Positions 706 to 35,513 of a stretch of DNA of 35,842 nucleotides are shown piece after piece. This DNA comes from Nitrospirota bacterium. Lineage in GTDB: Bacteria > Nitrospirota > Nitrospiria > Nitrospirales > Nitrospiraceae. The stretch is taken from NCBI GenBank assembly GCA_020027965.1, contig JAHRHE010000014.1:1-35842 (forward strand). Reading direction: 5' to 3'. The notes below the pieces were generated by a model, which had not been told where the DNA came from, made no database searches, and saw nothing but the letters and a program-made list of their open reading frames with translations. How positions within the stretch are numbered: position 1 is the first letter of the stretch; every line of letters begins with the position of its first letter. Both the position numbers and the translations under genes were made by a program.

Positions 706-1992
706 ATGTCCAATCCGTCCCGTCGAGCGCTCCTGGTGACGCATTGCGGACAACTGCTGACGTTCCGCGGCCCGCGCCGCCCGCGCACCGGGGCCGAGAT
801 GGGGGACGTCGGGCTGCTTCGTAATGCCGCGCTCGTAATCCGGAACGAGACCGTGGTTCGAGTGGGTTCCGGAGCGCGAGCGCGGGACTGGCCGGAAGCC
901 CGCCATGCGCCTCTCTTAGATGCCTGCGGGAAGGTGGTGCTGCCGGGCTTTGTGGATTCCCATACTCATGCGCTCTTTGCGGGCACCCGGTTGGATGAGT
1001 ATGAGGCCAGGATCCGGGGAGCCACGTATGCACGGATCGCCAGGGCGGGCGGTGGAATTCAGGCTTCGGCGAAGCAGGTGCGCAGGCTGAGCCAGTCGGC
1101 GCTGGCCGGTCACCTCGATCACGTCATCCGGCGGTTTCTGGAGTACGGGACCACGACCGCGGAAGTGAAGAGCGGCTACGGCCTCGAGTTCGGGCAAGAG
1201 CTCAAGATGCTGAAGGCCATTCGCGCGGCGCGGCGCCGCGCCTCGTTCGATCTGATCCCCACGCTCCTGGCCCACGCGATTCCCGCACGGTTTCGCGCCG
1301 CGCGCTCACAGTACGTCCGACGCCTGATCCGGTGGTTTATCCCGGCGGTCGCTCGGGCCGGTCTGGCGGAATTCTTTGACGTGTTCTGCGACACCGGCTA
1401 TTTTACTGTGGCGGAAACCAAGACGGTCCTGGAAGCGGCGGCCCGCGCGGGCTTCAAACTCAAGATCCACGCGGAGCAGATGGCCCGCACCGGGGCTGCC
1501 CGGGTCGCGGCGCAACTGGGCGCGGTCTCGATGGATCACCTCGAGCACTTGACTGAATCCGACATCAGGGCGCTCAGGACGGTGCAAGAGGCGCGGGGCT
1601 CGCGGACGATCGCCACCCTGCTGCCCGGGAGCGTGCTGCATCTGGGCGGCGGGGTTTATCCACCCGCCCGAGCGCTCATTCATGCGGGGATCCCCGTAGC
1701 GCTGGCCACGAACTTCAATCCGGGCAGTTCGCCAACTCTGAACATGCAAGTCATCCTGTCCCTGGCCTGTTCACACATGCGGATGAGCCCGGCCGAGGCC
1801 CTCACGGCCTCGACCATCAACGGGGCTTACGCCGTGGGCCGCGGGAGCCTGGTGGGATCACTGGAGGTCGGCAAGCAAGCTGACCTCGTGATCATGGATG
1901 TGCGGGACTACCGGGAGATCCCGTATTTTTTCGGAATGAACCACTGCGCCACGGTAATCAAGAAGGGCCGGGTGGTGTACAGAAAAGGTTGA
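706..1992 (+). CDS. hutI: Imidazolonepropionase
   Basis: This 428-residue amidohydrolase hydrolyses 4-imidazolone-5-propionate to N-formimidoyl-L-glutamate, the third step of histidine degradation, in the cytoplasm. Family marks are the HTHALFAG motif with metal-ligand histidines 86 and 88, His255 in KIHAEQ, the MDHLEH motif and the NPGSSPT motif near residue 340. Residue 336 is Asn in LATNFNPG, where many family members have the metal-ligand Asp. The ATG at 706 has an AAGGA about 7 nt upstream. Length is normal for the family. Its stop codon lies in the left arm of an inverted repeat, and the fused ftcD-fchA gene, which acts on its product, follows after 69 nt, so the two probably form one transcription unit. 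hutU and hutH are about 13-17 kb away on the other strand. Confidence 0.95.
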   Translation: MSNPSRRALLVTHCGQLLTFRGPRRPRTGAEMGDVGLLRNAALVIRNETVVRVGSGARARDWPEARHAPLLDACGKVVLPGFVDSHTHALFAGTRLDEYEARIRGATYARIARAGGGIQASAKQVRRLSQSALAGHLDHVIRRFLEYGTTTAEVKSGYGLEFGQELKMLKAIRAARRRASFDLIPTLLAHAIPARFRAARSQYVRRLIRWFIPAVARAGLAEFFDVFCDTGYFTVAETKTVLEAAARAGFKLKIHAEQMARTGAARVAAQLGAVSMDHLEHLTESDIRALRTVQEARGSRTIATLLPGSVLHLGGGVYPPARALIHAGIPVALATNFNPGSSPTLNMQVILSLACSHMRMSPAEALTASTINGAYAVGRGSLVGSLEVGKQADLVIMDVRDYREIPYFFGMNHCATVIKKGRVVYRKG

Positions 1993-2050
1993 GGTTAAGG
2001 CTAAGGGCAAACTCTCCTCTTTGCTCAACCTGAACCTCAGCCTCAACCTG
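1986..2050 (+). repeat. Quasi-palindrome of 6-nt tandem words, hutI-ftcD junction
   Basis: The left arm (1986-2007) reads as AGGTTG-AGGTTA-AGGCTA and the right arm (2023-2050) as CTCAAC-CTGAAC-CTCAGC-CTCAAC. The outer nine bases (1986-1994 and 2041-2049) pair perfectly and the inner part pairs imperfectly around a 15-nt loop. The left arm includes the hutI stop codon, and the right arm ends 11 nt before the ftcD start. It could fold as an mRNA hairpin between the two genes. It belongs to a class seen several times in this window, each with its own word and period. Confidence 0.75.
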
Positions 2051-2061
2051 GGCGGAAGATC

Positions 2062-3567
2062 ATGGACCGTCTCGTCGAGTGCGTGCCGAATTTCAGCGAG
2101 GGGCGAAACGCGGAGACGGTCCGCGCGCTCGTGGAGGCTGTCCGATCAGTACAAGGGGTGTGGGTCCTGGATGAGGAAATGGACCGGGACCATCACCGGG
2201 CGGTGATCACTTTCGTGGGGGAGCCGGCCGCGGCGGTCGAGGCGGCGTTCCAGGCCACGCGCACGGCGGCCGGTGCCATCGACCTGAGAGTCCATCACGG
2301 CGGCCATCCGCGCGTCGGGGCCACGGATGTCATCCCCTTCGTGCCGATCCGGGGTGTCACGATGGCGGACTGCGTGACCTTGGCCCGGAATCTCGGTGAG
2401 CGGATCGGCCGGGAGTTGGGCATTCCGGTCTTCCTCTACGAACAGGCCGCCTCCCGGGCGGACCGCGCCAACCTGGAATCCATCAGGCAAGGCGGGCTGG
2501 AAGGGCTCGCCAACCGAATGGCGTCGAACCCGGCCTGGGCTCCCGACTACGGCCCTCGCGCGTTGCATCCGACCGCCGGAGCGACGGTGGTGGGGGCGCG
2601 GCCTCCGCTGATCGCCTACAATGTGAACCTCCAGACCGATGACCTGGCGGTGGCGAAGGCGATCGCCAAAACGGTCCGCTTCTCGAGCGGCGGGCTCCCG
2701 TTCGTCAAGGCGATCGGAGTCGAGCTCGCGAGTCGCCATATCGTCCAGGTCTCGATGAACCTCACGAACTATGAGCAGACGCCGATCCACGTCGCGTACG
2801 AGGCGGTGAGGCGGGAGGCCGAGCAGCGTGGCGTGAACGTGTCCGGGAGCGAGATCATCGGGCTCATTCCTCAACGCGCCCTTCTCCAGGCGGCGGAGTA
2901 TTTTCTCAAGGTGGAACGCTTCGACCCGACCCAGGTGCTCGAAACACGGCTGGAGATGGTGCTGGCGAAGACGACGGGGGACTTGAGCGCGTCGGTATCC
3001 GACTTTCTGGGGGCAGTTGCAGCGGGAACCCCGACGCCGGGCGGTGGGAGCGTCGCCGCGATGGCCGGCGCCCTCGCGGCGGCGTTGGGTGTGATGGTCT
3101 GTCGGATCGGCTCCTCGGGTGCGGGGACGACCGCGCCAAGTCAGCCGGCCGACCACACCTCATCGGAGCAACGGCTGGTCCGCTTAGGCGAGAGACTGCG
3201 GGGACTGATCCAAGCGGATGCGGACGCCTACGCCGACGTGGTGCGGGCCTATCGTTTGCCCAAGACCGACGGAACCAGAGCGGAGGCGATCTCGGCTGCG
3301 CTTCGCAAGGCCACCGAAGTGCCTCTCGAGACGGCAGACCTGGCTTGTGAAACGGCCTCCCTCTTGCGCGGGCTGCTGTCGCAGACCAAACCGACCGTCG
3401 CCTCGGATCTCAAGGTGGGGCTGCTCATGGCGCTGGCCGCCATCGAGGGAGGTCTGGAAAATGTCATGACCAACCTAAAAGCTCAGGGGAATCAAGGCTT
3501 TCTGAATGAAATTGCGCCCCGCGTCCAGGCCATTCAACAGCGTCTTGTAGAACTCAAAAAGCTATGA
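2062..3567 (+). CDS. ftcD: Fused glutamate formimidoyltransferase / formimidoyl-THF cyclodeaminase
   Basis: This 501-residue fusion moves the formimino group from N-formimidoyl-glutamate to tetrahydrofolate, giving glutamate. It then deaminates 5-formimidoyl-THF to 5,10-methenyl-THF, so histidine feeds the one-carbon pool. Residues 1 to about 300 are the transferase, with the VPNFSEGRN start and the HHGGHPRVGATD motif, whose His82 matches the catalytic His82 known from the mammalian enzyme. Residues from about 310 are the helical cyclodeaminase, starting at SDFLGAVAAGTPTPGGGSVAA. The domain order is the same as in animal FTCD. The ATG has a GGAAG 6 nt upstream. It lies directly after hutI and is separated from it only by a quasi-palindromic repeat. 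Both domains look complete. Confidence 0.95.
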   Translation: MDRLVECVPNFSEGRNAETVRALVEAVRSVQGVWVLDEEMDRDHHRAVITFVGEPAAAVEAAFQATRTAAGAIDLRVHHGGHPRVGATDVIPFVPIRGVTMADCVTLARNLGERIGRELGIPVFLYEQAASRADRANLESIRQGGLEGLANRMASNPAWAPDYGPRALHPTAGATVVGARPPLIAYNVNLQTDDLAVAKAIAKTVRFSSGGLPFVKAIGVELASRHIVQVSMNLTNYEQTPIHVAYEAVRREAEQRGVNVSGSEIIGLIPQRALLQAAEYFLKVERFDPTQVLETRLEMVLAKTTGDLSASVSDFLGAVAAGTPTPGGGSVAAMAGALAAALGVMVCRIGSSGAGTTAPSQPADHTSSEQRLVRLGERLRGLIQADADAYADVVRAYRLPKTDGTRAEAISAALRKATEVPLETADLACETASLLRGLLSQTKPTVASDLKVGLLMALAAIEGGLENVMTNLKAQGNQGFLNEIAPRVQAIQQRLVELKKL

Positions 3568-3885: not shown

Positions 3886-3931
3886 CCTTCTCTGACCACC
3901 GACCACTGATCCCCCTTCTGACCGAATCCGC
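3886..3931 (+). repeat. Possible single arm of a 7-nt word repeat before nth
   Basis: The stretch before the nth start reads as loose 7-nt words such as CCACCGA, CCACTGA and TCTGACC. The other arm near 3855-3875 is poorly matched, apart from TCGGTC. It ends at the nth ATG and leaves no visible ribosome-binding site. It resembles the better-formed word-built inverted repeats elsewhere in the window, but the call is weak. Confidence 0.3.
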
Positions 3932-4908: not shown

Positions 4909-7900
4909 ATGGCCCACGTCGGCTCCCTCTCCAGTGCACTCTGGAGCCTGAGGCCTCTCGCTGCAGCGATGGGGCTCGTGCTCCTGGCGTCTCCGCTCTA
5001 CGCCGATTCCACCTCTCAGCCCCGCACACTCTTCGGTCCAGAACGCTTCGTCCGGACGGCCGGTCCCCCCAGCACCTTCCAACGCAGCTTTACCGTTCCT
5101 CCCTCAGTCTCCGCCCCCTTTGCGATGCGCCTCATCAATGGAGATCCTGACGAAGACGACGGGAAGGACGCGGATCGGGAGAAGAACAAGGGAGACGACC
5201 ACGGGAGCCTACGGTGCAAGCCTTCCGAAGAGCCGAGGCCCCATGGGGAGGCGGTCTCAAGCGGCCGCATCCTGCTCGATGGGGTCGAAGTCGTCTCCCC
5301 GCAGGATTTCTCCAAGCACGCCGAGGTCCTCGACAAGGAACTCCGGCTCACCTCCGGCCCGCATCGGCTCGAGATTCAAATCGGTGGGGCTCCGGGCACC
5401 CATCTTTGCCTGACAATGGTCGGCACCATCCGGCCCGGCAAGCTGGAAAAGCCGCGGGCCGGCCATGCCGCGACCCTGCTGCCAGACGGCAGCGTGCTGA
5501 TCACCGGAGGCCGGCGCAAGGAGCGCGACATCCTGGACAGCGCCGAAATCTTTGATCCCCAGACGCTCAGGAGCCGCCTACTGACAGTCGAACTCACCGC
5601 CCCCAGGACCGAGCACACCGCCACCTTGGTGCCGAACGGGGAGGTGCTGGTCGCCGCCGGGCGGGATACCCACGGGGTGCTCTTCAGCACAGAGCTCTTC
5701 CAGCGGGATGGCACCTTTCATCCCCTTCCGGCCACGGTCCAGGTGCCGCGCGCCGGCCACACGGCCACGCTCTTGCCCGACGGCCGGGTGGTAATCCTGG
5801 GCGGGCGGGATGTCTCCAATCTGGGGCTGGACCAAGCGGAATCCTTCGAGGTCCCAACCGGACTCCTCTATGATCCCCGAAGCGGCCAATTCTCTGTTCT
5901 TCCCCATGCCCTGCAGGTGCCGCGGCACAATCATACCGCGACGCTGTTGCCCAATGGCAAGGTCTTGGTGGTCGGCGGCCGACAGGACGAGGAGATTCTG
6001 GGCTCGGCCGAGCTGTTTGATCCTGCCACCGGCGAGAGCACGCTTGTGGAGGCTCAGCTACGAAATCCCCGGATGCGGCACACCGCCAGCCTCCTCAACG
6101 ATGCCCGCGTGCTCATCGCCGGCGGGCGGAACAAGAAGGATGCCTTGGATTCGGTTGAGGTCTTCGATCCCGCTTCCCAGACCTTCACCAGACTGCGACC
6201 CAAGCTGCGGGCGGAACGCTTCAATCATACGGCGACCGTGCTGCCGACCGGGGACATCTTGATTGCGGGCGGTCGGGAGGATGAAGACAAGGATCCCACC
6301 GGTGAGATTGAATTGTATTTCCAGCCAGGTCAGGACACCACGCCGCCAACCGTGCTGGAGATCGCGCCGCCCACGGACACCACCGGCGTCTCGCAGACCC
6401 CGCTGATCGCCATCCGGTTCTCGGAGCCGATCAACGTGACGACCTTGAAGGGTACGACGATGACATTGACCGGCCCCCAGGGTCCCGTGCCCGGCTCCGT
6501 GAGTCCGGGAGACGAGGGTCTACTCGCCTTTTTTGTCCCCACTGCGCCACTGACCCCTGGGACCACCTATACACTCGCTTTCCAGGGCGTGACCGATCGG
6601 GCCGGCAATCCGCTACCCACGTTCGCCAGCCGCTTCACGACTGTCCTGCCACCACCGGTGATCACCGGTTTCTCGCCCGGCAGCGGCCCGCCCGGGACGA
6701 CCGTCACGATCACTGGCGAGCAGTTCGTCCAAGTGCAATCCGTTGACTTTAACGGCGTCCCGGCTGCATTCACGGTCGTGAGCCCCGCCGAGCTCACCGC
6801 CACGGTACCTGCAGGGGCGCAATCCGGTCCGATCAGCATCACCACCCCCGGCGGCACGGCCACCTCAGCCATCTTCACGGTGATCACCGGGCCGACGATT
6901 CTAAATTTTGACCCGACCAGTGGGTCGTTCGGAACCTCGGTCACCATCACCGGGCAGAACTTTAGTTCGGTTGCGTCCCAGAATCAGGTGAAGTTCAACG
7001 GTGTCCCAGCCATCGTCACCTCGGCCACACTCACGGAGATCAGGGCCACGGTACCGCACCAAGCCACCACCGGCCCGATCACAGTTACCACGGCGTTGGG
7101 CAACGCCGCCGGTCCCTCGGATTTCACGGTGACCCTGCGGCAGGACTTCACCCTAAGCGCCGCTCCGGCGCAAACCATGACCTTGCAGGGCGGGCAGGGG
7201 AGCTATGTGTTGAACGTGACCGGTCAGGGTACCTTCACCGGCCTGGTGTCGCTGAGCGTGAGCGGCTTGCCGACAGGCGTGGCCGCCAAGTTCGATGCGC
7301 CCACACTCACCACTGGCCAGAACACGCTGCTCACGCTGGCCGCTAGTTCGGCGGTCCAAGTGGGGGTGGCTTCCTTCACCCTGTCCGGCACCGCCACGAT
7401 TGACACTGGGCCCAAGACTCAGACCATTCCATTGACACTGGAAGTCCTGGCCGCCGCCGGCCGGACCGCCGTGAGCGGGCAGTTCCTGACGGTGGATGGC
7501 AGGCCAATTCAAGGCGTAGAGGTAAAAATCGGAAGCGTACAAGGCAGAACCGATGCGGCCGGGAATTTTCTCCTGCTGGATGTGCCGGCGGGGGCCCAAC
7601 TCCTCATGGTTGACGCAAACGTCGCGGTGGCCGGATTCCCGATCTACAACGTGGGACTGGATCTCATAGCCGGCCAGACCTTGGTGCTGCCGGCGTTCCG
7701 GATCACGCCGCCTCCGCGGCCCGAACGATTCACGCCGATCAGCAACGCGTCCGCTGACCAGATCATTACCGACCCGCGGTTCCCCGGAGTGGAGATCACG
7801 CTCCCCGCCGGTGTGACCATCATCGGCTGGGACGGCCAGCTCAAAAACAAGATTGCGGTTGAGCGACTAGATCCCGACCGGTTGCCCGTTCCCCCGCCGC

Positions 7901-10900
7901 CAGGTCCCATGCGGTCGCTTTACCAGCTCTTCTTCGGCACACCCATGGGTGGTCTCCCCAGCAAGAAGATTCCCGTTACGCTGCCGAACGATATAGGCCT
8001 GGACCCCGGCGATAAAGCGGAAATGTGGTACTTCGATGCCTCACCCTTTGGGGATCCTGGCACGTGGCGCCTGGCCGGGTTGGCAACCGTCAGCGCCGAC
8101 GGCACCAAAATCGTTTCGGATCCGGGTGTCGGCATTGAGCGCTTCTGTGCGGTGTGCGGGATCATCGGCTGCATTTCGACAGCCCAGGCTGCCCAAAACA
8201 AGCAGCCGAATATTGTTCCTGGTGGAGAAAGCGGCGGTGAGCCGGTAGATTTGGCCACGGGCATCTTCACAGCGGGGAAAACCGATCTGGTGCTTCCCGG
8301 ACGCTTGCCGATTCGTATCAGCCGGGGCTTCAACCCCTTTGATCCCTTCAGCGCTCTCCGATTGTTTTCGTCGCCCTTGGGGCCAGGGTGGTCTCTGTCT
8401 GTTGATGTCACCCTTTCCTCCCCTACTGCGGACTTGTTGCGCCTCATCCTGCCGGGTAATTCACGGCTAGACCTGGTGCGACAATCTGGTGTGACGTTCA
8501 CCAACAGCACCCATCCTTCCTTGAGAGGTGCGGTGCTCAAAACTCTCCCGGAGGGCGGCCATCAACTGCGCTTCAAGGATGGGACCACCTGGCGGCTCAA
8601 ATCTTTCGAAGTTCAGTCGGGAACTTCCCTCGAGTTTCTGGTGGAGATTGCCGATCGGAATGGCAATAAGATCGCCATTGAACGGGGTGACAGGGGAAGA
8701 GTTTCCCGCATCGTCGACTCCGTCGGCAGGGCCTTGGAGTTTACATACAGTTTTGCTGGTGGAGTCCTCACGCAGATCCGCGACCCGTTGGGCCGGACCG
8801 TCCAGTACCGCTACGACAACAATGGCCGGCTTGCGACCGTAACCGATCTTGCGGTAGGGATGACGAGCTATGCCTATGACACCGAAGGCCGCATTCTCTC
8901 CATCACGGATCCAAAGGGAATCAAGTTCATCGAAAATTTCTATGGTCCCAGCGGCCGGGTCTTGCGGCAGGTGCAGGCGGATGGCGGCGAGTGGCGTTTC
9001 CGCTATCGGGTCGTTGGAGCCACGGTGACGGGACCTGGGTGTCCCGGAAACGGCTGCCCCTCGGAAGACTCCTGGGAAAACTTCCAGGCCGGCTATTCAA
9101 TTAAAGGCGGCGCTGTCACAGCGACCAGCATTGTTGACCCGCGTGGCAATGCGACTAGTCACCGGTTTAATAACGCGGGCTTTACTACCGAGGTCACCGA
9201 TGCACTCGGTCAGACTACTCGCTTCCAAAGAGATGCCGAGGGGAAGCTCTTGAGTACTACTGATTCGCTAAGCCGGACCACTCGGTACGAGTACGATACC
9301 GTCGCAAACGTCACAGCGGTTATAGACCATGCAGGACACGTCAGAAGATTCACCTATGAGCCCACCTTCAACAGGATGACCAGCGCCACGGACGAGCTTG
9401 GCAACCTGAATCGCTTTTCGCACGATGCCACAGGCAACTTGTCCATGGTCACCGATCCACTCGGGCACCTCCGCCCTTTCACCTATAACGACTTCGGTCA
9501 ACCCCTGAATGCCGTAGATCCCCTGGGCAATGTCACTGCCTTTGAGTACGATACTTTCGGTAATCTGGTCCGAATTACGGATCCGCTGGGAAATTCTTCC
9601 ACCAAGACCTATGACGGCGTCTCCCGACTCCTCACTCAGACAGATGCTTTGGGGAGAACCACTCGGTTCACTTACGATGATCTGAACCGCGTGGTCACTA
9701 TTCTGGACCCAATAGGAGGTCAAACAAAATATACGCGAGATCCCAACGGCAACCCACTTGTGATCACTGATGCTCGTGGGAATTCGCAGACTTTGGTCTA
9801 TGACAACATGGACCGCCTAATCCGCCGCACTGACCCACTGGGGAATGTCGAGAACCTTACCTATGACGGTAATGGCAACCTCACCAGGATAACAGATCGG
9901 AAGGGGCAAACGACTGCGATTGTTTACGATGCCCTGAACCGCAAAGCAAGAGTGGAATATCCAGACGGCTCGGTAACTAAGTCCGAGTACAACGCCGCGG
10001 GCCGCGTCATCGAAGCCGACGACATGAGTGATCCCCACCGGCCTATCGTGTTCGCCTACGACCTCCTGAATCGGGTGGTGGCCGAGACCACTTCCCTTGG
10101 GACAGTCAACTATCAGTACGACGCCCTCGGCCGTCGCACGTCAATGACCGTCAACGGTCAGGAGCCTCTGGTTTACACTTACGACGCTAACTCTAGGTTA
10201 CGAACAATGACCCAATTTCCCCTGAATCCGGTGACCCTTGAATATGATGCGTTGGGGCGTCGAACGTTACTGTCTCTGCCCAACGGTGTTTCCACCGAGT
10301 ACCGGTATGATCCTGGCAGTCGCCCTACCGCCCAGGTCTACCGGAACGCTACGAGTTTCCTGGGAGACTTGACTTACCAGTACGACTCCGTTGGCAACCG
10401 CATCGGCGTTGGCGGCTCATTCGCGCAGACCTTGATACCAGCCATTGTCACCGGAGCGACTTACGACGCCGCCAATCGTCAGCTTGCATTTGGTAACAAG
10501 ACGATGACATTTGACGCCAACGGAAACTTGCTCTCAATCACAGATCCCAGCGGGACTACGTCCTTTGCTTGGGATGTCCGTAACCGCCTGCTTGGGCTGG
10601 CTGGCCCCGGAATCGTGGCAGCATTTCAGTACGATGCCTTCGGCCGCCGGGCTCGGAAGACTGGCAACGGTGTTCTCGAAGTATTCCAGTTCGACGGGAT
10701 AAATCTTGTCTCAGAAAATCGCGGAGGAGTGGCAGCCCGATACCTCATGGGTCAGGGAATAGATCAACCACTCGCTCGAATCAGAGCGGACCGAAGTATT
10801 TTCTATTTGCCTGATGCCCTTAGCAGCACGATTGCGCTCACGGATGAAAAGGGTGGGATTTCCACGACGTACAGTTACGAACCATTTGGCAAAACTGCAA

Positions 10901-11676
10901 GCGCTGGCACGATCAATGACAACTCGCTTCGGTTTGCCGCGCGCGAGCAGGATGACATGGGTATCTACTATTTCCGGTCTCGCTACTTTGACCCTGCTCT
11001 AGGCCGGTTCATATCGGAGGACTCCTTTGGCCCTGCTGGTGGAAGCCTGAACCTCTACACGTACGCCGCCAACAACCCTACTCTGCTCCTCGATCCAACT
11101 GGGCATGAGCCAGTGTCACTCACTCTGTTGGCGTTCGCTGTTATTCTCAATGCGGCTGCATGGACCGCTGTTACTGCGGAAATCGGAGCCATCATGGAAG
11201 GTGGCGGGTTGAGTGCAGACCCCATCAAAGTACGGCAGGCGGGAGCAAGAGGATTTGCCGAGGGTGCAGTAAGAGGAGCAATCGAATTCTATTGCAGATT
11301 CACTTGCCCTGCAACCGCCGGAGCAGCAGCCGGGTTCTCGGTTAGCCTCATTGGACAATACCAACAGGGTGATCCGATTAGCCTTCCGCAGGCAGGGCGG
11401 GATGCAGCCCTAGGAGCCTTTGAGAACAAACTTAGTTCATTACTTCTCGCAGGCTTCCCTAGATCGCCAGTCGAGACAGGTTATCTCAAGCTGAGTATCG
11501 TAGAGGGCTGGCAAAACCTCTTATACGATCCGGTATTTACTAAAGGATACCAGTTGCTCCCGGTCAGGGCTGAAATTCTCGGAGGGCCACTTCAAGCAGT
11601 ATTGGAGTTCCTAAAGGGCATTGGGCATGCTTTATTGAATTCGGGTATGACCGACTCCCCTGGTGAGCGTAAGTGA
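4909..11676 (+). CDS. Giant exported Kelch-IPT-RHS/YD-repeat protein
   Basis: I start this 2,255-residue protein at the ATG at 4909, because it gives a normal signal peptide (hydrophobic core, then SPLYA) that a start at the GTG at 4837 would bury. In order come about six Kelch-like repeats with HTATLLPNG and ITGGR-type motifs (about 177-470), an SbsA-type Ig domain (477-577), two IPT/TIG domains (581-741), an Ig-like domain (744-847), a carboxypeptidase-regulatory-like domain (851-904), a DUF6531-like RHS entry domain (about 1109), many YD repeats (about 1245-1890) and the RHS core YFRSRYFDPALGRFISED (near 2018). The last 190 residues after the DPTGH boundary are a variable tip with hydrophobic helices that I do not recognise. 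RHS proteins form shells around a released C-terminal part, often a toxin. No immunity gene is evident downstream. Confidence 0.88.
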   Translation: MAHVGSLSSALWSLRPLAAAMGLVLLASPLYADSTSQPRTLFGPERFVRTAGPPSTFQRSFTVPPSVSAPFAMRLINGDPDEDDGKDADREKNKGDDHGSLRCKPSEEPRPHGEAVSSGRILLDGVEVVSPQDFSKHAEVLDKELRLTSGPHRLEIQIGGAPGTHLCLTMVGTIRPGKLEKPRAGHAATLLPDGSVLITGGRRKERDILDSAEIFDPQTLRSRLLTVELTAPRTEHTATLVPNGEVLVAAGRDTHGVLFSTELFQRDGTFHPLPATVQVPRAGHTATLLPDGRVVILGGRDVSNLGLDQAESFEVPTGLLYDPRSGQFSVLPHALQVPRHNHTATLLPNGKVLVVGGRQDEEILGSAELFDPATGESTLVEAQLRNPRMRHTASLLNDARVLIAGGRNKKDALDSVEVFDPASQTFTRLRPKLRAERFNHTATVLPTGDILIAGGREDEDKDPTGEIELYFQPGQDTTPPTVLEIAPPTDTTGVSQTPLIAIRFSEPINVTTLKGTTMTLTGPQGPVPGSVSPGDEGLLAFFVPTAPLTPGTTYTLAFQGVTDRAGNPLPTFASRFTTVLPPPVITGFSPGSGPPGTTVTITGEQFVQVQSVDFNGVPAAFTVVSPAELTATVPAGAQSGPISITTPGGTATSAIFTVITGPTILNFDPTSGSFGTSVTITGQNFSSVASQNQVKFNGVPAIVTSATLTEIRATVPHQATTGPITVTTALGNAAGPSDFTVTLRQDFTLSAAPAQTMTLQGGQGSYVLNVTGQGTFTGLVSLSVSGLPTGVAAKFDAPTLTTGQNTLLTLAASSAVQVGVASFTLSGTATIDTGPKTQTIPLTLEVLAAAGRTAVSGQFLTVDGRPIQGVEVKIGSVQGRTDAAGNFLLLDVPAGAQLLMVDANVAVAGFPIYNVGLDLIAGQTLVLPAFRITPPPRPERFTPISNASADQIITDPRFPGVEITLPAGVTIIGWDGQLKNKIAVERLDPDRLPVPPPPGPMRSLYQLFFGTPMGGLPSKKIPVTLPNDIGLDPGDKAEMWYFDASPFGDPGTWRLAGLATVSADGTKIVSDPGVGIERFCAVCGIIGCISTAQAAQNKQPNIVPGGESGGEPVDLATGIFTAGKTDLVLPGRLPIRISRGFNPFDPFSALRLFSSPLGPGWSLSVDVTLSSPTADLLRLILPGNSRLDLVRQSGVTFTNSTHPSLRGAVLKTLPEGGHQLRFKDGTTWRLKSFEVQSGTSLEFLVEIADRNGNKIAIERGDRGRVSRIVDSVGRALEFTYSFAGGVLTQIRDPLGRTVQYRYDNNGRLATVTDLAVGMTSYAYDTEGRILSITDPKGIKFIENFYGPSGRVLRQVQADGGEWRFRYRVVGATVTGPGCPGNGCPSEDSWENFQAGYSIKGGAVTATSIVDPRGNATSHRFNNAGFTTEVTDALGQTTRFQRDAEGKLLSTTDSLSRTTRYEYDTVANVTAVIDHAGHVRRFTYEPTFNRMTSATDELGNLNRFSHDATGNLSMVTDPLGHLRPFTYNDFGQPLNAVDPLGNVTAFEYDTFGNLVRITDPLGNSSTKTYDGVSRLLTQTDALGRTTRFTYDDLNRVVTILDPIGGQTKYTRDPNGNPLVITDARGNSQTLVYDNMDRLIRRTDPLGNVENLTYDGNGNLTRITDRKGQTTAIVYDALNRKARVEYPDGSVTKSEYNAAGRVIEADDMSDPHRPIVFAYDLLNRVVAETTSLGTVNYQYDALGRRTSMTVNGQEPLVYTYDANSRLRTMTQFPLNPVTLEYDALGRRTLLSLPNGVSTEYRYDPGSRPTAQVYRNATSFLGDLTYQYDSVGNRIGVGGSFAQTLIPAIVTGATYDAANRQLAFGNKTMTFDANGNLLSITDPSGTTSFAWDVRNRLLGLAGPGIVAAFQYDAFGRRARKTGNGVLEVFQFDGINLVSENRGGVAARYLMGQGIDQPLARIRADRSIFYLPDALSSTIALTDEKGGISTTYSYEPFGKTASAGTINDNSLRFAAREQDDMGIYYFRSRYFDPALGRFISEDSFGPAGGSLNLYTYAANNPTLLLDPTGHEPVSLTLLAFAVILNAAAWTAVTAEIGAIMEGGGLSADPIKVRQAGARGFAEGAVRGAIEFYCRFTCPATAGAAAGFSVSLIGQYQQGDPISLPQAGRDAALGAFENKLSSLLLAGFPRSPVETGYLKLSIVEGWQNLLYDPVFTKGYQLLPVRAEILGGPLQAVLEFLKGIGHALLNSGMTDSPGERK

Positions 11677-11765: not shown

Positions 11766-12971
11766 ATGAAGGGGCAAGAGTGGCGTTGGATTTGGACCTC
11801 TCGGGTTCAGCAGGCGTGCGGGGGCGTTCTGGCCCTCACCCTTCTCTTATCCCTGCCCATCACCGCCCTTGCCCAGGAGATCCACTACCTCTACGACGAT
11901 CTGGATCGCCTCATCGCAGTGATCGACCAGCAGGGGCGGACCGCCATCTATGAGTACGACGCGGTGGGAAACATCTTGGCCATTCGTCGAGTGGATGCCA
12001 CCGGGCCGGTCGCCATCACCTTGGTGAATCCAACTCAAGGAGGCATCGGGGCCCAGGTCCAGCTCTTTGGGATCGGCTTTAGCAACATTCCGACCGAGAA
12101 TACGATTGCCTTCAACGGCGTCCCCGCTCCTGTGCTGGCTGCCAGTGTTAACAGCCTGACGACTCAGGTCCCGACCGGCACCACCACTGGCCTCATCACG
12201 GTAACCACGCCCTTGGGCTCGGCGGTCTCGCCCACGCCGTTCACGTTCATCGGGGCAAAGGTCACCGTGTCACCCACTCAGGCCACCTTAGTGGTCCGAG
12301 CCAGCCAACAATTCAGCGCCACGGTTACCGAGACAGCCGATGAACGCGTCGCCTGGAGTGTGAATGGGATCACAGGCGGCAATGCCACGGGTGGAACTAT
12401 CAACTCCGAGGGAATCTATACCGCACCCGCCGCAGTCCCTACCCCACCCACGGTCACGATCCGCGTGGCCAGCGTTCCCTCTCCAGGGGTGTTCGCCGAG
12501 GCCACGGTCACGATCGTGCAGGAGGCGACCGACTTTGCCGAAGCGGCGGTGAGCGTCCGCTTCGGCCCGCCTCCGCCGGGAACCATTGGCACTGCACCCA
12601 TCAGCGTCCTTTTTGGCCCGCCGCCTCCTGGAACCGTAGTCGGCAGGGACGTGAGCGTCACGAATGGTCCCCTCATCACCGCCGTCAGCCCGTCAAGCGG
12701 TATCCAGGGGGCCAGTAACTTGGCTGTCACTCTTCGGGGGGTAAACCTCAACGGGGCCACGGCGCTCACGTTTCTTCTGAATAGAACCAGCGATGGGAGC
12801 ATCTCGGCCTCTGGGCTGTCGGTTACTCCAGAGGGGACCGAGGCACAGGCGACCCTAACGATTACCGCCACTGCCCCCCTCGGGCCCCGGGCCGTGGTCA
12901 TCACGACTCCGGCGGGTCCCTCGAGCACGTTGGAGCTTGGCACGAACATCTTTTCCGTACTCGCTCCGTAG
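11766..12971 (+). CDS. Exported mini-YD-repeat / IPT protein with GPPPPGT repeats
   Basis: This 401-residue protein begins with a signal peptide (cleavage after ITALA) followed at once by two YD-repeat signatures, YLYDDLDRLIAVID and YEYDAVGNILAIRR, as in the large RHS protein upstream. An IPT/TIG domain follows (about 75-155), then a Big_2-like Ig domain (about 158-245), a short tandem repeat of about 20 residues containing SV-x-FGPPPPGT (two clear copies), and a last IPT-like domain. The ATG at 11766 follows GAGGGG; a GTG lies one codon earlier. It sits 89 nt behind the RHS gene and is probably part of the same surface module. Two YD repeats are too few to form an RHS shell, so it may pair with the large protein or be a domain relic. 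Function unknown. Confidence 0.7.
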   Translation: MKGQEWRWIWTSRVQQACGGVLALTLLLSLPITALAQEIHYLYDDLDRLIAVIDQQGRTAIYEYDAVGNILAIRRVDATGPVAITLVNPTQGGIGAQVQLFGIGFSNIPTENTIAFNGVPAPVLAASVNSLTTQVPTGTTTGLITVTTPLGSAVSPTPFTFIGAKVTVSPTQATLVVRASQQFSATVTETADERVAWSVNGITGGNATGGTINSEGIYTAPAAVPTPPTVTIRVASVPSPGVFAEATVTIVQEATDFAEAAVSVRFGPPPPGTIGTAPISVLFGPPPPGTVVGRDVSVTNGPLITAVSPSSGIQGASNLAVTLRGVNLNGATALTFLLNRTSDGSISASGLSVTPEGTEAQATLTITATAPLGPRAVVITTPAGPSSTLELGTNIFSVLAP

Positions 12972-12986
12972 TGAGAAGGAGGAACC

Positions 12987-14405
12987 ATGGTTAGGCAATC
13001 AGCCATCAGCGATCAACAATTAACAAGCGGCAGACTGTCCACTCTCAGCTATCGGTGGCGAACTGTTCGTTGTCTGATGATAACTGCCAACTGTCTGCTG
13101 ATAGCCACTCCTGCCTTTGCCCAGCAGACCCTTTCATGTGGGAGCACGGGGGCCGATTTGGCATTCAACCCGACAGTCAGCACCACCCTGACCCTGCCGC
13201 CAAGCGGCGTCTTCAACTTCACCACAGTCAATGTACCGAGCGACGTGACCGTGGCCTTTACCAAGAACGCCGCCAATACCCCCGTCACCATCCTGGCGAC
13301 TGGCGATGTGACCATCAATGGAATCATTGACGTGAGCGGCAAAGCCGCCGGGACCTCTGGCATCCCGGGCCAGGGTGGACCTGGAGGGTTTGACGGAGGG
13401 ATGGGGGGCAACCCCACCGTTGCCGTTAATGGGACTTCCGGACTCGGACCTGGAGGAGGAGGTGGTGGCGACGACACCGTTGGTAGCGGGGGGAGTGGAG
13501 GTGGCTTCGGCACCGCCGGGGTGGGGTCGCGAGCCGGACCGACCTATGGTATCCCCACGCTGCTCCCGCTCATTGGGGGCTCGGGAGGCGGTGGAGCCCA
13601 GACTGTCCAAGGCCTTACAGCCGGTGGAGGAGGAGGGGGTGGTGGCGCGATCTTGATTTGCGCTCCTGGGACAATCACCTTTACTAGTCCCGGTACCATA
13701 AGAGCCAATGGAGGGAGGGCAGGAGGAGGTGGGGGCGGATCGGGCGGTGGCATCCGCCTGATCGCGAACAGGATCACGGGAAGTGGTGCGACAATCGAGT
13801 CTGTAGGGGGACTCTTAAATTTCCTTTTTCCGTCGGGTGGCTTAGGGCGCATTCGCCTCGAGGCCTTCGAGACTACCGTGACCGGCCCCATTACCCCGCC
13901 ACCCTCCGGAGGGCTTCCAGGGCCGGTGACGCCCCCTGCAGGATCTCCCACCCTCCAGATCACATCGGTAGGAGGGGTGACCCCGCCCGCGAATCCACAA
14001 GGCTCCTTCCTGGCGTTGTCTGATATCACACTAAGCCCCACCGTGACCAATCCGCTCACGGTAAATCTGACCGCGGCCAATATCCCTGTAGGGACCTTCG
14101 TGGCGGTGACCGTGACCCCCGAGGCTGGGCCTCGGACGACGGAGAACAGCACGGCCCTCAGCGGGACTCTTGCCGGCTCGACCGCCTCGGCCAGCGTGAC
14201 GCTGCGGAACGGCGTCAGTATCATCAGCGCCACGGCCACCTTTGCCACTTCCCCGACCGCGAGCCTCGGCGCTCCAATGATGATCGGGGAGGAAGAAGTA
14301 AAATGGATCCGCGTGGGAGCCGTTTATGGCGGGCCCTCGACGCTGACGTACATCACGGCCTCAGGCAAGGAGGTTCCGGAGGAACAGATCGCATCCCGCA
14401 GGTAG
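12987..14405 (+). CDS. Exported glycine-rich repetitive protein
   Basis: This 472-residue protein has a strong ribosome-binding site (AAGGAGG at 12976-12982) 4-5 nt before the ATG. Its first 30 or so codons are made of a word-built inverted repeat, after which comes a signal-peptide core ending in ATPAFA. Residues of about 95-260 contain long Gly runs broken by short hydrophobic strands (VTINGIIDVSG, ILICAPGTITFTSPGTIRANGG), a beta-helix or adhesin-like pattern. The second half is Thr/Val-rich and Ig-like and ends in a more ordinary segment (EEEVKWIRVGAVYGG). Only 15 nt separate it from the mini-YD gene, so the three exported proteins probably form one unit. Binding or matrix function is a guess. 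Confidence 0.7.
   Translation: MVRQSAISDQQLTSGRLSTLSYRWRTVRCLMITANCLLIATPAFAQQTLSCGSTGADLAFNPTVSTTLTLPPSGVFNFTTVNVPSDVTVAFTKNAANTPVTILATGDVTINGIIDVSGKAAGTSGIPGQGGPGGFDGGMGGNPTVAVNGTSGLGPGGGGGGDDTVGSGGSGGGFGTAGVGSRAGPTYGIPTLLPLIGGSGGGGAQTVQGLTAGGGGGGGGAILICAPGTITFTSPGTIRANGGRAGGGGGGSGGGIRLIANRITGSGATIESVGGLLNFLFPSGGLGRIRLEAFETTVTGPITPPPSGGLPGPVTPPAGSPTLQITSVGGVTPPANPQGSFLALSDITLSPTVTNPLTVNLTAANIPVGTFVAVTVTPEAGPRTTENSTALSGTLAGSTASASVTLRNGVSIISATATFATSPTASLGAPMMIGEEEVKWIRVGAVYGGPSTLTYITASGKEVPEEQIASRR
12994..13105 (+). repeat. Quasi-palindrome of 7-nt words inside a signal peptide
   Basis: The left arm (about 12994-13035) reads as AATCAGC-CATCAGC-GATCAAC-AATTAAC, and the right arm (13061-13105) as TGATGAT-AACTGCC-AACTGTC-TGCTGAT-AGCC. 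Reversed and complemented, the right arm matches the left in register in two blocks, GC-x-ATCAGC and CAGAC, with weaker pairing between. It lies just after the start codon of the glycine-rich protein and is translated without a stop into its N-terminal region. Confidence 0.6.
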
Positions 14406-18849: not shown

Positions 18850-18918
18850 CTGTCTATGTCTTCACGTTCGCCACTTACCTGTTCACTTTCTACTTGGCGG
18901 CGACAGCCGCAGGCCTGC

Positions 18919-19394: not shown

Positions 19395-19460
19395 GGCAAT
19401 TGCCAATAGATATAGAAGAGTTGCTCCCATCGCCTCTAGCCCATCGCCCATAGCCAATGC
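19395..19460 (+). repeat. Quasi-palindrome of 7-nt words ending in the polA start codon
   Basis: The right arm (19426-19460) splits into CCCATCG-CCTCTAG-CCCATCG-CCCATAG-CCAATGC, and the last word contains the polA ATG. The left arm (19395-19422) splits into GGCAATT-GCCAATA-GATATAG-AAGAGTT. Reversed and complemented, the right arm matches the left loosely but in register. The polA gene has no separate Shine-Dalgarno sequence because the repeat takes its place. Confidence 0.6.
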
Positions 19461-32215: not shown

Positions 32216-32358
32216 ACGAACACCCAATTCCTGAGCGGCGCGGTACGGCAGTGAGCGCCCGGTCAGCCCTCATCCCGCGCATCCGGTACAGTGACCGCTT
32301 CCCTCCCGTCCTCCAGAGCGGCCGACGCGCTCGGGAACGGCGCTACGAGCCCTCACAC

Positions 32359-33441
32359 ATGATCGACACCGTGGCAGAGCACATTGCAGCCTTGAAAGAT
32401 GAGGACTGGGCTGTCCGGGAAGATGCGGCGACGGCACTAGGCCTGTCTCGCGATACGCGGGCGGTCGTCCCCCTGGTGGCACTCCTCAAGGACTCCGACC
32501 GTGCGGTCCGCGAGGCTGCGATGGCTGCCTTGACGGCGATCGGCGAGGCCTCGGTCATGGTGTTGAGCGCGTGCCTCCAGGACTCCGATCTCAGCGTGCA
32601 GGAATCGGCCGCTGCGATCCTGGCGAAGATCGCGGACGCGCGGGTCGTGGACCCGTTGCTTGCGGTGCTGAATAGCCCAAGCTGGATTGTCAGAATGCAC
32701 ACCGCCAGGGCCTTGGGGCAGATCGGCGACGCCAGCGTGGTGAAACCCCTCGTGTTGTTGCTGCAGGACACCGTGAAGGCCGTGCGGACGGACACGGGGG
32801 AAGCGCTGGCTCGGATCGGCGCGGCTGCCGTCCCGATATTGCTGGAGTCGCTGAAACACGAGGAGTGGCTGGTCCGCCTGCATGCGGTGGAGGCCCTGGG
32901 CAAGATCAGATCGCCCGATGCGGTCGAGCCGTTGCTGTACGTGCTGTTCAACGATCGGGATGCGGCGGTGCGGGAAGACGCGGCCCGATCCCTGGGTGAG
33001 ATCGGAGATTCGCGGGCGGTCGAGTTTCTGATGACCGCAATGGCCGAGCCGGGGCTACGCCCGCTGGCGATCGAAGCCCTGGGTCGCATCGGCGACCGGC
33101 GGGCCGTGCCGGCTCTGATTTCCGTGGTCAACGGTACGAGTCAACCGGTCGACAGCCGGCCGCTCCACGGCTGCGGCGATCGTTGGGACCAGGAGATGTT
33201 CGCCATGGAGGCGGCCGTCAAAGCCCTGGCTCAGATCCGGGATGAGTCCGCGATTCCCACGCTCGTCGCCGCACTGCAGAACACCGTAGTCCGTGCAGAG
33301 GCTGCAGCCGCCCTGGCCGCGTTCGGCACGCGGGCCATACCGTTCCTGTTGGAAGTCCTGAAGAAGGAGCGTGACGAGAATATCCTCTTTTATGCCAAAG
33401 ATGCGTTGACCCAGGTGGGATGGAGACCCGGCCGAATCTAA
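32359..33441 (+). CDS. HEAT-repeat protein 2
   Basis: This 360-residue alpha-solenoid starts at the ATG at 32359, because the repeats begin there (IAALKDEDWAVREDAATALG); in-frame GTGs at 32206 and 32251 would add a basic, low-complexity stretch. About eleven HEAT units follow. A loop at about 262-283 with Cys272 (LHGCGDRWDQEMFAMEAAVKAL) breaks the rhythm, like the Cys loop of HEAT protein 1. The end VGWRPGRI matches the ends of HEAT proteins 1 and 4. The ribosome-binding site is weak. It heads a unit with the next two HEAT genes. Confidence 0.88.
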   Translation: MIDTVAEHIAALKDEDWAVREDAATALGLSRDTRAVVPLVALLKDSDRAVREAAMAALTAIGEASVMVLSACLQDSDLSVQESAAAILAKIADARVVDPLLAVLNSPSWIVRMHTARALGQIGDASVVKPLVLLLQDTVKAVRTDTGEALARIGAAAVPILLESLKHEEWLVRLHAVEALGKIRSPDAVEPLLYVLFNDRDAAVREDAARSLGEIGDSRAVEFLMTAMAEPGLRPLAIEALGRIGDRRAVPALISVVNGTSQPVDSRPLHGCGDRWDQEMFAMEAAVKALAQIRDESAIPTLVAALQNTVVRAEAAAALAAFGTRAIPFLLEVLKKERDENILFYAKDALTQVGWRPGRI

Positions 33442-33446
33442 GTGAG

Positions 33447-33522
33447 GATCTGGCGATTTGGCGATGTGGTGATGTTATCATGCTCCGAGCTCAATGATTC
33501 AATCATAAAGTCACCCAATCTA
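33447..33522 (+). repeat. Quasi-palindrome of 8-nt words before HEAT gene 3
   Basis: The left arm (33447-33478) splits into GATCTGGC-GATTTGGC-GATGTGGT-GATGTTAT, and the right arm (33491-33522) into TCAATGAT-TCAATCAT-AAAGTCAC-CCAATCTA. Reversed and complemented, the right arm matches the left at 18 of 27 places by my count, or 20 allowing G-U pairs. It fills the gap between HEAT genes 2 and 3 and ends 4 nt before the ATG, leaving no Shine-Dalgarno sequence. Confidence 0.7.
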
Positions 33523-33526
33523 ACTT

Positions 33527-34633
33527 ATGCCCAAAGAGTCGCTCGAAACCCTGATCTCGGAACTGGTCCACGAAGAGGACTGGCGCCGAATGCGCGCGAC
33601 GGCGGCCTGTCTAGCCGGCGGTCCCAAGGCCGTGGAAGGGTTGGTCCATGCCCTGGCGAGCGGCAGCTCGGCGCTGAAGATCGAGGCGGCCGGGATGCTC
33701 GCGCGTATCAAGGATCCCATGGGTGGGGTCCCGTTGGTGCGGCTGCTCCGCGATGAGAACATGGCAGTCCGCAAGGCCGGCGCGATCGCACTGGAGCAGA
33801 TGGCGGGAATCCTCGACGCTTCGGCGGCGTCAGCACTGGTGGAGGAACTCCATGTGGTCGAAGAAGACAGCCTGCGGGAACTCGTCGGCGGGCTGCTGGG
33901 AGCGATCCCCAATGCGATCGAGCCGCTGACCGCCATGCTCACGCACGAGGACACATCAGCCCGGCTCACCGCGGCCGGCATCCTGGAGCACCTGCTGGAT
34001 CCGCGCTCAGCGAATGCGCTCGTGGATGCGATGGCGGACTCGGCCGTGCGGGACATCGCGATCCGGACGCTGAAGAAACTCGGCGCGATCCGGGACCGCA
34101 TTGACCGGACCTTCGAGGAGTTGCGGGCGGTGGAAGGCTCCAGCGAGCGTGAGGAGGCCAGGATGGCGGCGGTGATCGACCTCCTGGGGATCGGGCGCCC
34201 AAGCGTGGAGATCTTGATCGAATACCTCCAGGACGAAGATTGGGTCGTTCGGGAGGCGGCGACGGATTTGCTCGGCAAGATCGGCGATGTCCGTGCGGTG
34301 GAGCCGTTGGTTGAACGGCTTCGGATGGACAAGGATACCGGGGTCAAGGAGCTGGCCGTCAAGGCGCTCGGGCTGATCGGTGATGCCCGGCCCGTCGAGT
34401 TGCTGGTGGAACTCATCCCGATCCGCCCGTTGCGGATCTACGCGGTGGAAGCGCTCGCGAAGGTCAAGGACGTCGAGCGGCTTCGCCCGTTTGCGGATCT
34501 CTTTGAGCGATTGAAGACGGATCGCGATGGGTTGGTGTCGTACAACTCGGGCGTGATCGTCGACAAACTCGCGGCGGCTGCCGCGCAGGTCCGCGAGGAA
34601 GCTGTGCAAGAAGGAACGGACGGGGATGAGTGA
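33527..34633 (+). CDS. HEAT-repeat protein 3
   Basis: This 368-residue HEAT-type solenoid is more divergent than its neighbours. Its N-terminal units are acidic and less regular (LVHEEDWRRMRATAACLAGGPKAVEGLV), and later ones are canonical (VVREAATDLLGKIGDVRAVEPLV). A segment at about 185-215 (RIDRTFEELRAVEGSSEREEARM) looks like a helical insertion without repeat rhythm. It lacks the Cys loop and the LGW-type end of the others and finishes in an acidic tail (EEAVQEGTDGDE). The start codon follows a word repeat with no clear ribosome-binding site. Its last 8 nt overlap HEAT gene 4. Confidence 0.85.
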   Translation: MPKESLETLISELVHEEDWRRMRATAACLAGGPKAVEGLVHALASGSSALKIEAAGMLARIKDPMGGVPLVRLLRDENMAVRKAGAIALEQMAGILDASAASALVEELHVVEEDSLRELVGGLLGAIPNAIEPLTAMLTHEDTSARLTAAGILEHLLDPRSANALVDAMADSAVRDIAIRTLKKLGAIRDRIDRTFEELRAVEGSSEREEARMAAVIDLLGIGRPSVEILIEYLQDEDWVVREAATDLLGKIGDVRAVEPLVERLRMDKDTGVKELAVKALGLIGDARPVELLVELIPIRPLRIYAVEALAKVKDVERLRPFADLFERLKTDRDGLVSYNSGVIVDKLAAAAAQVREEAVQEGTDGDE

Positions 34634-35439: not shown

Positions 35440-35513
35440 CTACGAACCACGCTTCACGCTTGCACGCCGAAGCGCTTCAGCGCGCAGGCACGAACGACGA
35501 GCGACTTATCCAG
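35440..35513 (+). repeat. Possible weak 7-nt word repeat after HEAT gene 4
   Basis: The stretch includes CACGCTT-CACGCTT-GCACGCC and later ACGAACG-ACGAGCG words, with the perfect palindrome GAAGCGCTTC in the middle (near 35468-35477). Pairing of the arms is poor. It may be a degraded member of the word-built repeats seen elsewhere. Confidence 0.3.

Follow-up and report, generated by a model that had tools for sequence, protein, structure and literature searches.

Inverted repeats whose arms are built from degenerate tandem copies of a short word form a real genome-wide class in the Nitrospirota genome that contains our window (the whole stretch of 35,842 nucleotides analysed here). The gene junctions that these elements occupy, together with their architecture, outlive the words, as the word, and sometimes its period, is replaced both between and within genera. 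The repeat kind itself is already known, and the novel part is the persistence of junction and design despite the change of word. In each element, a left arm of 3-5 degenerate word copies (6-9 nt) is followed by a loop of unique sequence and then by complementary words as the right arm. In the following, the genomes compared carry G-numbers (G000 being the window's genome) and the sampled loci carry L-numbers; all window features are on the forward strand.

The element at 1986-2050 lies between a hutI-type amidohydrolase gene (706..1992; Pfam Amidohydro_1/3) and ftcD (2062..3567), which takes its name from the preliminary description and from its histidine-degradation neighbours and served as the anchor for comparing orthologous junctions. 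The left (5') arm (1986..2006, AGGTTGAGGTTAAGGCTAAGG) reads as the hexamer word AGGTTG AGGTTA AGGCTA AGG and contains the hutI stop codon TGA (1990-1992), while the right (3') arm (2024..2049, CTCAACCTGAACCTCAGCCTCAACCT) is a degenerate reverse complement of the left-arm word and stops 12 nt short of the ftcD ATG (2062). The loop between them (2007..2023) is unique sequence, similar only to the loops that the hexamer elements of G167 and G169 have at the orthologous junction. Both the tandem word and the palindrome initially described at this site are borne out by comparison with shuffled sequence: the period-6 self-match is 12 against a dinucleotide-shuffle mean of 4.5 (p 0.0025), and the hairpin has an MFE of -27.3 (z -4.4, p 0.0025 vs shuffles). 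The covariance models of Rfam 15 gave 0 matches across the whole window at gathering thresholds, and a search for intrinsic terminators at 1900-2150 found no terminator-like site.

Three further sites of the window for which the same design had been proposed, 12994-13105, 19395-19460 and 33447-33522, contain the tandem words (periods 7, 7 and 8; p 0.0025 each vs shuffles), but their palindromes do not exceed shuffles inside those coordinates (p 0.18, 0.83 and 0.21, respectively). The first has its left arm at 12998..13026 (heptamer ATCAGCC ATCAGCG ATCAACA ATTAACA; lag-7 p 0.0025) and its right arm at 13070..13105 (TGATGATAACTGCC..GATAGC). This right arm runs over the likely start (ATG 13077) and the signal-peptide codons of gene 13077-14405, part of whose secretion signal is thus written in tandem-word sequence. 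The second lies between the stop of a PGPGW gene (19367) and the polA ATG (19457), with a left arm at 19397..19411 (GGCAATTGCCAATAG, heptamer GCCAATA) and a right arm at 19426..19455 (CCCATCGCCTCTAGCCCATCGCCCATAGCC, heptamer CCCATAG). In the third, the left arm (33447..33475; octamer word GATCTGGC GATTTGGC GATGTGGT GATG) begins right behind the stop of gene 32251-33441, and the right arm (33490..33522, CAATGATTCAATCATAAAGTCACCCAATCTA), of weak complementarity, precedes a gene with its ATG at 33527. The weaker traces suggested at 3886-3931, 18852-18899 and 35440-35513 are no better than shuffles in either periodicity or palindrome. Positions 35440-35513 carry a separate dispersed palindromic core of the CGCGCTGAAGCGCT..GGCGCGCAAGCGTG type, which is also found in or next to some tandem-word elements (L018:8321-8477; L253:6479-6603; L295:3187-3342); the loops of L253 and of L295, from another genus, are 93% alike over 30 nt. 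Elsewhere in the window, a 2,255-aa open frame (4909-11676) followed by an RHS-repeat protein (11766-12971) breaks the gene order hutI-ftcD-rpsU-nth ... polA, which relatives keep as a syntenic block.

The genome is available as a 3.6 Mb assembly of 263 contigs, of which 996 kb was sampled with an element finder that pairs an arm showing lag-p self-match with a second, complementary one no more than 150 nt away; in the control, the second arm is reversed and not complemented. The sample yielded 82 inverted repeats with degenerate tandem-word arms against 4 in the reversed-arm control, and 304 kb from syntenic relatives, where nonamers appear too, yielded 48 against 2, placing the class that the preliminary description had anticipated well above chance in the genome and in its relatives. 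The two-arm excess in G000 occurs only at periods 6-8, with the remaining periods at control level, and the 82 elements divide into 60 heptamers, 14 hexamers and 8 octamers. Intergenic lag self-match in this sample is in excess at periods 6, 7 and 8 and at the harmonic 14, with a small excess at 12; lag-7 intergenic segments number 15 vs 0 in shuffles. As some sampled contigs were picked by word hits, the overall density is inflated, and the contigs taken without such selection (L021-L068, ~405 kb) contain 21 elements, or ~50 per Mb. A loop-to-loop search found the loops to be unrelated between elements, which have only short words in common. One arm at L253:2536-2613 holds 11 perfect GTGAAGC copies while its partner holds one, apparently a recent one-sided expansion. 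A palindrome family of the form CCCTGAGC..GTCGAAGGGTC is nested in the loops or the neighbourhood of several elements (L242:8876-9029; L241:6218-6348; L061:4045-4230; L012:6876-6965) and gives the impression that repeats of one class insert into those of another.

The elements are features of gene 3' ends and not of start codons. With gene calls from an ad hoc dicodon caller, 73 intergenic elements were placed in G000; tandem gaps hold 60 of them, convergent gaps 11 and divergent gaps 2, corresponding to 0.71, 0.68 and 0.07 elements per kb of gap. Divergent gaps, with two starts, are thus depleted about tenfold, whereas convergent gaps, with no start, match tandem ones in density (Fisher p 0.018 and 0.007), and the initial rule that the repeats sit at start codons has to be given up. 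The association appeared because the elements fill tight operon gaps. The distance from stop to element has a median of 5 nt, with the upstream stop inside the arm in 32%, and that from element to start a median of 12 nt; once the element is removed, a median gap of 15.5 nt remains.

At the RNA level, tandem gaps of G000 that hold an element are considerably more structured than those that do not (median z -2.7 vs -0.35, p 6e-12), and trpE-trpG gaps are strongly structured as well (median z about -3). After folding, the trpE stop and the trpG start are separated by a median of 7.5 nt (-1 to 39), compared with 6-24 nt in empty gaps. Genome-wide, the folded residual gap (median 21.5 vs 10 nt, p 0.016) makes a weak argument because gaps without elements also fold. 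Shine-Dalgarno (SD) cores are present in 25% of the genes downstream of an element vs 52% (p 1.4e-4), as expected if translation of these genes relies on coupling, the efficiency of which declines as the stop-start distance grows (PMC12548453).

Orthologous junctions hold different words in different relatives, in agreement with the shared architecture and site-specific word originally proposed. At hutI-ftcD, the hexamer is found in G000, G169, G167 and G153 (four genera), differing heptamers in G143, G156 and G127 and a nonamer in G166, while the junction is empty in G149 and in G162, a member of the same genus as G169 in which an ATGA overlap has nothing inserted. Since the hexamer loops of G167 and G169 are near-identical and that of G000 is similar, the hexamer elements of these three genomes probably represent one old insertion. 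Upstream of polA, almost every genome has a word of its own; at least six alleles are occupied there and six are empty (gaps of -1 to 23 nt). The nth convergent junction, which G000 does not have and which was therefore not picked in advance for carrying an element, is filled in 7 of 13 relatives, again with differing words. The trpE-trpG junction is filled in ~16 of 20 genomes (gap 54-119 nt) with words that include GTGACGG, GCGTAAG, ATGGCGT, GTAAGGC, GTGATGG, CGTTAATCG and AAGTCATC, and empty in the other four (gap 6-24 nt); G158 carries a long hairpin without tandem words there, and G155, a single-contig genome, carries GAAGTGA, so that the class is not an assembly artefact. In empty trpE-trpG alleles (L309 vs L313 and L327), one GTGACGGG or GTGAACGGG stands beside the trpG start; this is the word that forms the arms in G000, and it could be a local seed. 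Among 15 common tandem or convergent junctions, four account for 25 of 27 elements (permutation p 2e-4), and ftcD-rpsU and rpsU-nth are occupied in 0 of 15 each. A word is common to 10 of 68 same-junction pairs, leaving 58 without one, and the gap in empty alleles overall spans only -4 to ~33 nt.

The words were initially regarded as unrelated between sites and not as a dispersed family, a view that needs revision given that a limited vocabulary, including GTGACGG, AGGTTG and AGGCAATA, recurs across sites within the genome, in relatives of other genera and in other phyla. AGGTTG-type (AGGTTRAGGYTRAGG-type) sequence occurs 14 times in G000 vs 0 in the reversed control and GTGAMGS triplets 37 times vs 0, the latter being patchy within the same family; G125, from a different family of the order, gives 48 GTGAAGC/GTGAMGS triplet hits (also L334). 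The GTGAAGC arrays of G125 are long, reaching about ten units. The same words are present in contigs named as Bacteroidetes, Chloroflexi, Planctomycetes, Acidobacteria-like and Proteobacteria bins and in some isolates. As cross-phylum element counts (109 vs 50 in the control) are inflated by coding sequence and perfect arrays, only polarity and individual clear cases were used as evidence at this distance.

Each word keeps one fixed side in a nearly absolute manner, though a hairpin reads alike from both strands. AGGTTG, GTGACG, AGGCAATA, TGAGGAC and GATTTGG stand on the left, and their complements sit on the right. Comparing element pairs with at least 7 common 7-mers, which are not independent of one another, we observed the same polarity in 187 of 189 pairs in G000 (2 opposite), in all 27 from relatives and in 148 of 152 from cross-phylum loci; pooled word polarity, likewise from non-independent pairs, is 763 same to 17 opposite. 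Such per-word polarity across phyla is a hard constraint on any proposed mechanism. The inward strand is usually G-rich (G>C in 53:7, 30:6 and 65:15), and inward-reading stop density in G000 is 0.099 vs 0.035 outward, with 0.054 in shuffles. Provision of stop codons was nevertheless rejected as the general cause of polarity, the bias being weaker in relatives (19:11) and the Xanthomonas GGGAATC word having no stops.

In order to rationalise these observations, we give an even chance to a model in which words are generated and turned over at the DNA level and are tolerated at gene 3' ends and tight junctions because the hairpin folds out. A slippage-like process favouring 7 nt would repeat short words, and the same process would convert or extend the opposite arm, such that elements could be made and rewritten quickly. 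They would persist chiefly at the 3' ends of genes and at tight operon junctions free of other control sequence, where the left arm would supply the upstream stop codon or sit right after it and the right arm would finish ~12 nt ahead of the next start. The folded RNA hairpin would then loop out and leave stop and start ~10 nt apart; as this is near the spacing of empty alleles, insertion and word change should cost little, whereas an element unable to fold would be expected to break coupling. Convergent elements, for which stop-start spacing cannot account, would need only to do no harm to gene ends, and the particular word would presumably have no function of its own. Slippage producing tandem units, with a preference for 7 nt, has been proposed for heptamer repeats in studies to which PMC4679880 and PMC4692102 refer. 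It would not supply the complement of the tandem units, however, while fold-back copying gives the complement and not the polarity. Exact fold-back copying, which should mirror unit variants between arms, was rejected: no element reached p<0.05 in a unit-mirror test of low power (3-4 units; Stouffer z 3.0). The slippage-like making of arms from a word and its complement, suggested in the preliminary description, is possible: tandem periodicity fits slippage, but simple fold-back copying would give mirrored variants and no polarity, whereas mirroring is weak and polarity near-absolute. Against the DNA-level model as a whole, neutral slippage with fold-back predicts neither a common vocabulary nor strict cross-phylum polarity, the ~80% occupancy of trpE-trpG across genera suggests that elements there are maintained and not simply tolerated, and the G158 hairpin at this junction is long without having tandem words.

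The last two points suit a different reading, possible though doubtful in our view, in which intercistronic RNA hairpins are selected at certain junctions for translation coupling or insulation, mRNA processing or 3'-end protection. Structure alone would then be under selection, with words drifting and tandem duplication rebuilding the arms. That a few junctions are occupied across genera and their neighbours never, and that both trpE-trpG gaps and element-bearing tandem gaps of G000 are strongly structured, speaks for such selection; clean empty alleles within a genus (G162 vs G169), whole lineages that are empty (G009, G077, G148), unmirrored unit variants and equally rich convergent gaps speak against it, and drift at separate sites would not give a vocabulary that recurs at unrelated junctions. 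Leader hairpins that regulate translation from the 5' side of start codons, the function first proposed, would agree with right arms ending a median of 12 nt ahead of the start and with the scarcity of SD cores downstream, yet we hold them to be very unlikely and, as a general rule, largely contradicted by the roughly tenfold depletion of divergent gaps, the richness of convergent ones and a stop codon that lies closer than the start. Even less credible are intrinsic terminators: although 11 of 71 elements have TTTT in the 12 nt beyond the 3' side of the hairpin vs 3% of random gap positions, the T run is missing in most, no terminator-like site was found at 1900-2150, and many elements lie inside operons (hutI-ftcD, trpE-trpG).

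Mobility and enzymatic synthesis were also considered as sources of the elements. If the elements were mobile palindromes like REP/REPIN or MITE sequences, with a transposase that recognises the arm words, this would fit their dispersed, polar placement at gene 3' ends, as seen for REPs, and their presence/absence polymorphism; two Y1_Tnp (PF01797) genes in this genome are candidate transposase genes. We nonetheless regard them as improbable, as the loops are unrelated with sharing limited to short words, word, period and unit number differ by site without a conserved core palindrome, and different words arrive at orthologous junctions; dispersal of whole hairpins was rejected, since all that the loop-to-loop search turned up was a nested palindrome family of an unrelated kind. 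An enzyme that, in the manner of telomerase, writes tandem words on both 3' ends of a break before joining would produce the order word, filler, complementary word, and in one step would account for arms that use one word, for polarity, for unit variants that are independent, for unique loops, for a limited vocabulary, for periods of 6-9 and for an inward strand that is usually G-rich. The genome does have an RVT_1 gene, but this single match is ordinary and the genome's matches show only common families, with no such enzyme or template RNA; moreover, period-7 repeats also arise through slippage in unrelated bacteria, and selection at gene ends could yield polarity. We consequently find this route highly improbable for the elements described here. 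A broader proposal, unlikely but worth stating, is that a process dedicated to word writing, such as templated extension of the two 3' ends at a break, is common to bacteria of several phyla. It would set the same 6-9 nt word in fixed polarity on both junction flanks and revisit junctions with new words, and the single-word repeats GGGAATC, TAACTGA and STRR would all be its products.

Because orthologous elements do not align, the class is missed by repeat finders and by alignment-based non-coding searches. Earlier heptamer repeats were described singly, by word or genome, and each was given its own function (quadruplex, regulator site or fingerprint). A junction and design that stay constant while word and period change make the architecture separable from the sequence and argue against word-specific functions, and word turnover makes the origin testable in strain series.

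The closest counterpart is the GGGAATC heptamer of Xanthomonas (Rehm et al. 2015, PMC4692102), whose tandem copies are mostly intergenic, form 70-75 inverted pairs that are always convergent with the G-rich word on the left, lie mostly between aligned and rarely between divergent ORFs, and are located 0-50 nt from a coding-strand stop, many of them over the stop codon; in ~90% of Xcc/Xac comparisons they occupy the same ORF pair with varying length. Our elements resemble these in architecture, 3'-end placement, scarcity in divergent gaps and G-left polarity, but differ in having many words, periods of 6-9 and word change at orthologous junctions in place of one word and one period. The Xanthomonas repeats were also read as G-quadruplex repeats, whereas four GGG runs occur in 1 of our 82 left arms. 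At one intron site (2002 work, as cited in PMC3488679) and in cyanobacterial STRR, as far as they are described there, degenerate heptamers likewise pair with complementary heptamers into a hairpin, and different repeat classes and copy numbers occur at one place; the elements described here are genome-wide, located at gene junctions, non-cyanobacterial and of periods besides 7. The TAACTGA repeats of marine Beggiatoaceae (MacGregor 2015, PMC4679880), also present in cyanobacteria and Bacteroidetes, are intergenic heptamer arrays that similarly overlap stops and lie close to starts, but are nearly all direct, one-armed, of a single word and oriented toward starts. Geobacter metallireducens has multicopy tandem 7- and 8-nt units, including some opposite-strand pairs that form loops (PMC2700814), which unlike ours are alignable families read as binding sites of global regulators. 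REP/REPIN sequences with RAYT (e.g. PMC2817692) are small palindromes dispersed in gene-dense genomes as well, though REPs have a core sequence in common where our elements have a short word only and unrelated loops. As regards MITEs, which are marked by fixed terminal inverted repeats and target-site duplications, the arms of our elements vary in word and unit number, and empty alleles are seen. The elements thus belong to a kind of bacterial repeat that is known but poorly explained, here in a version with many words.
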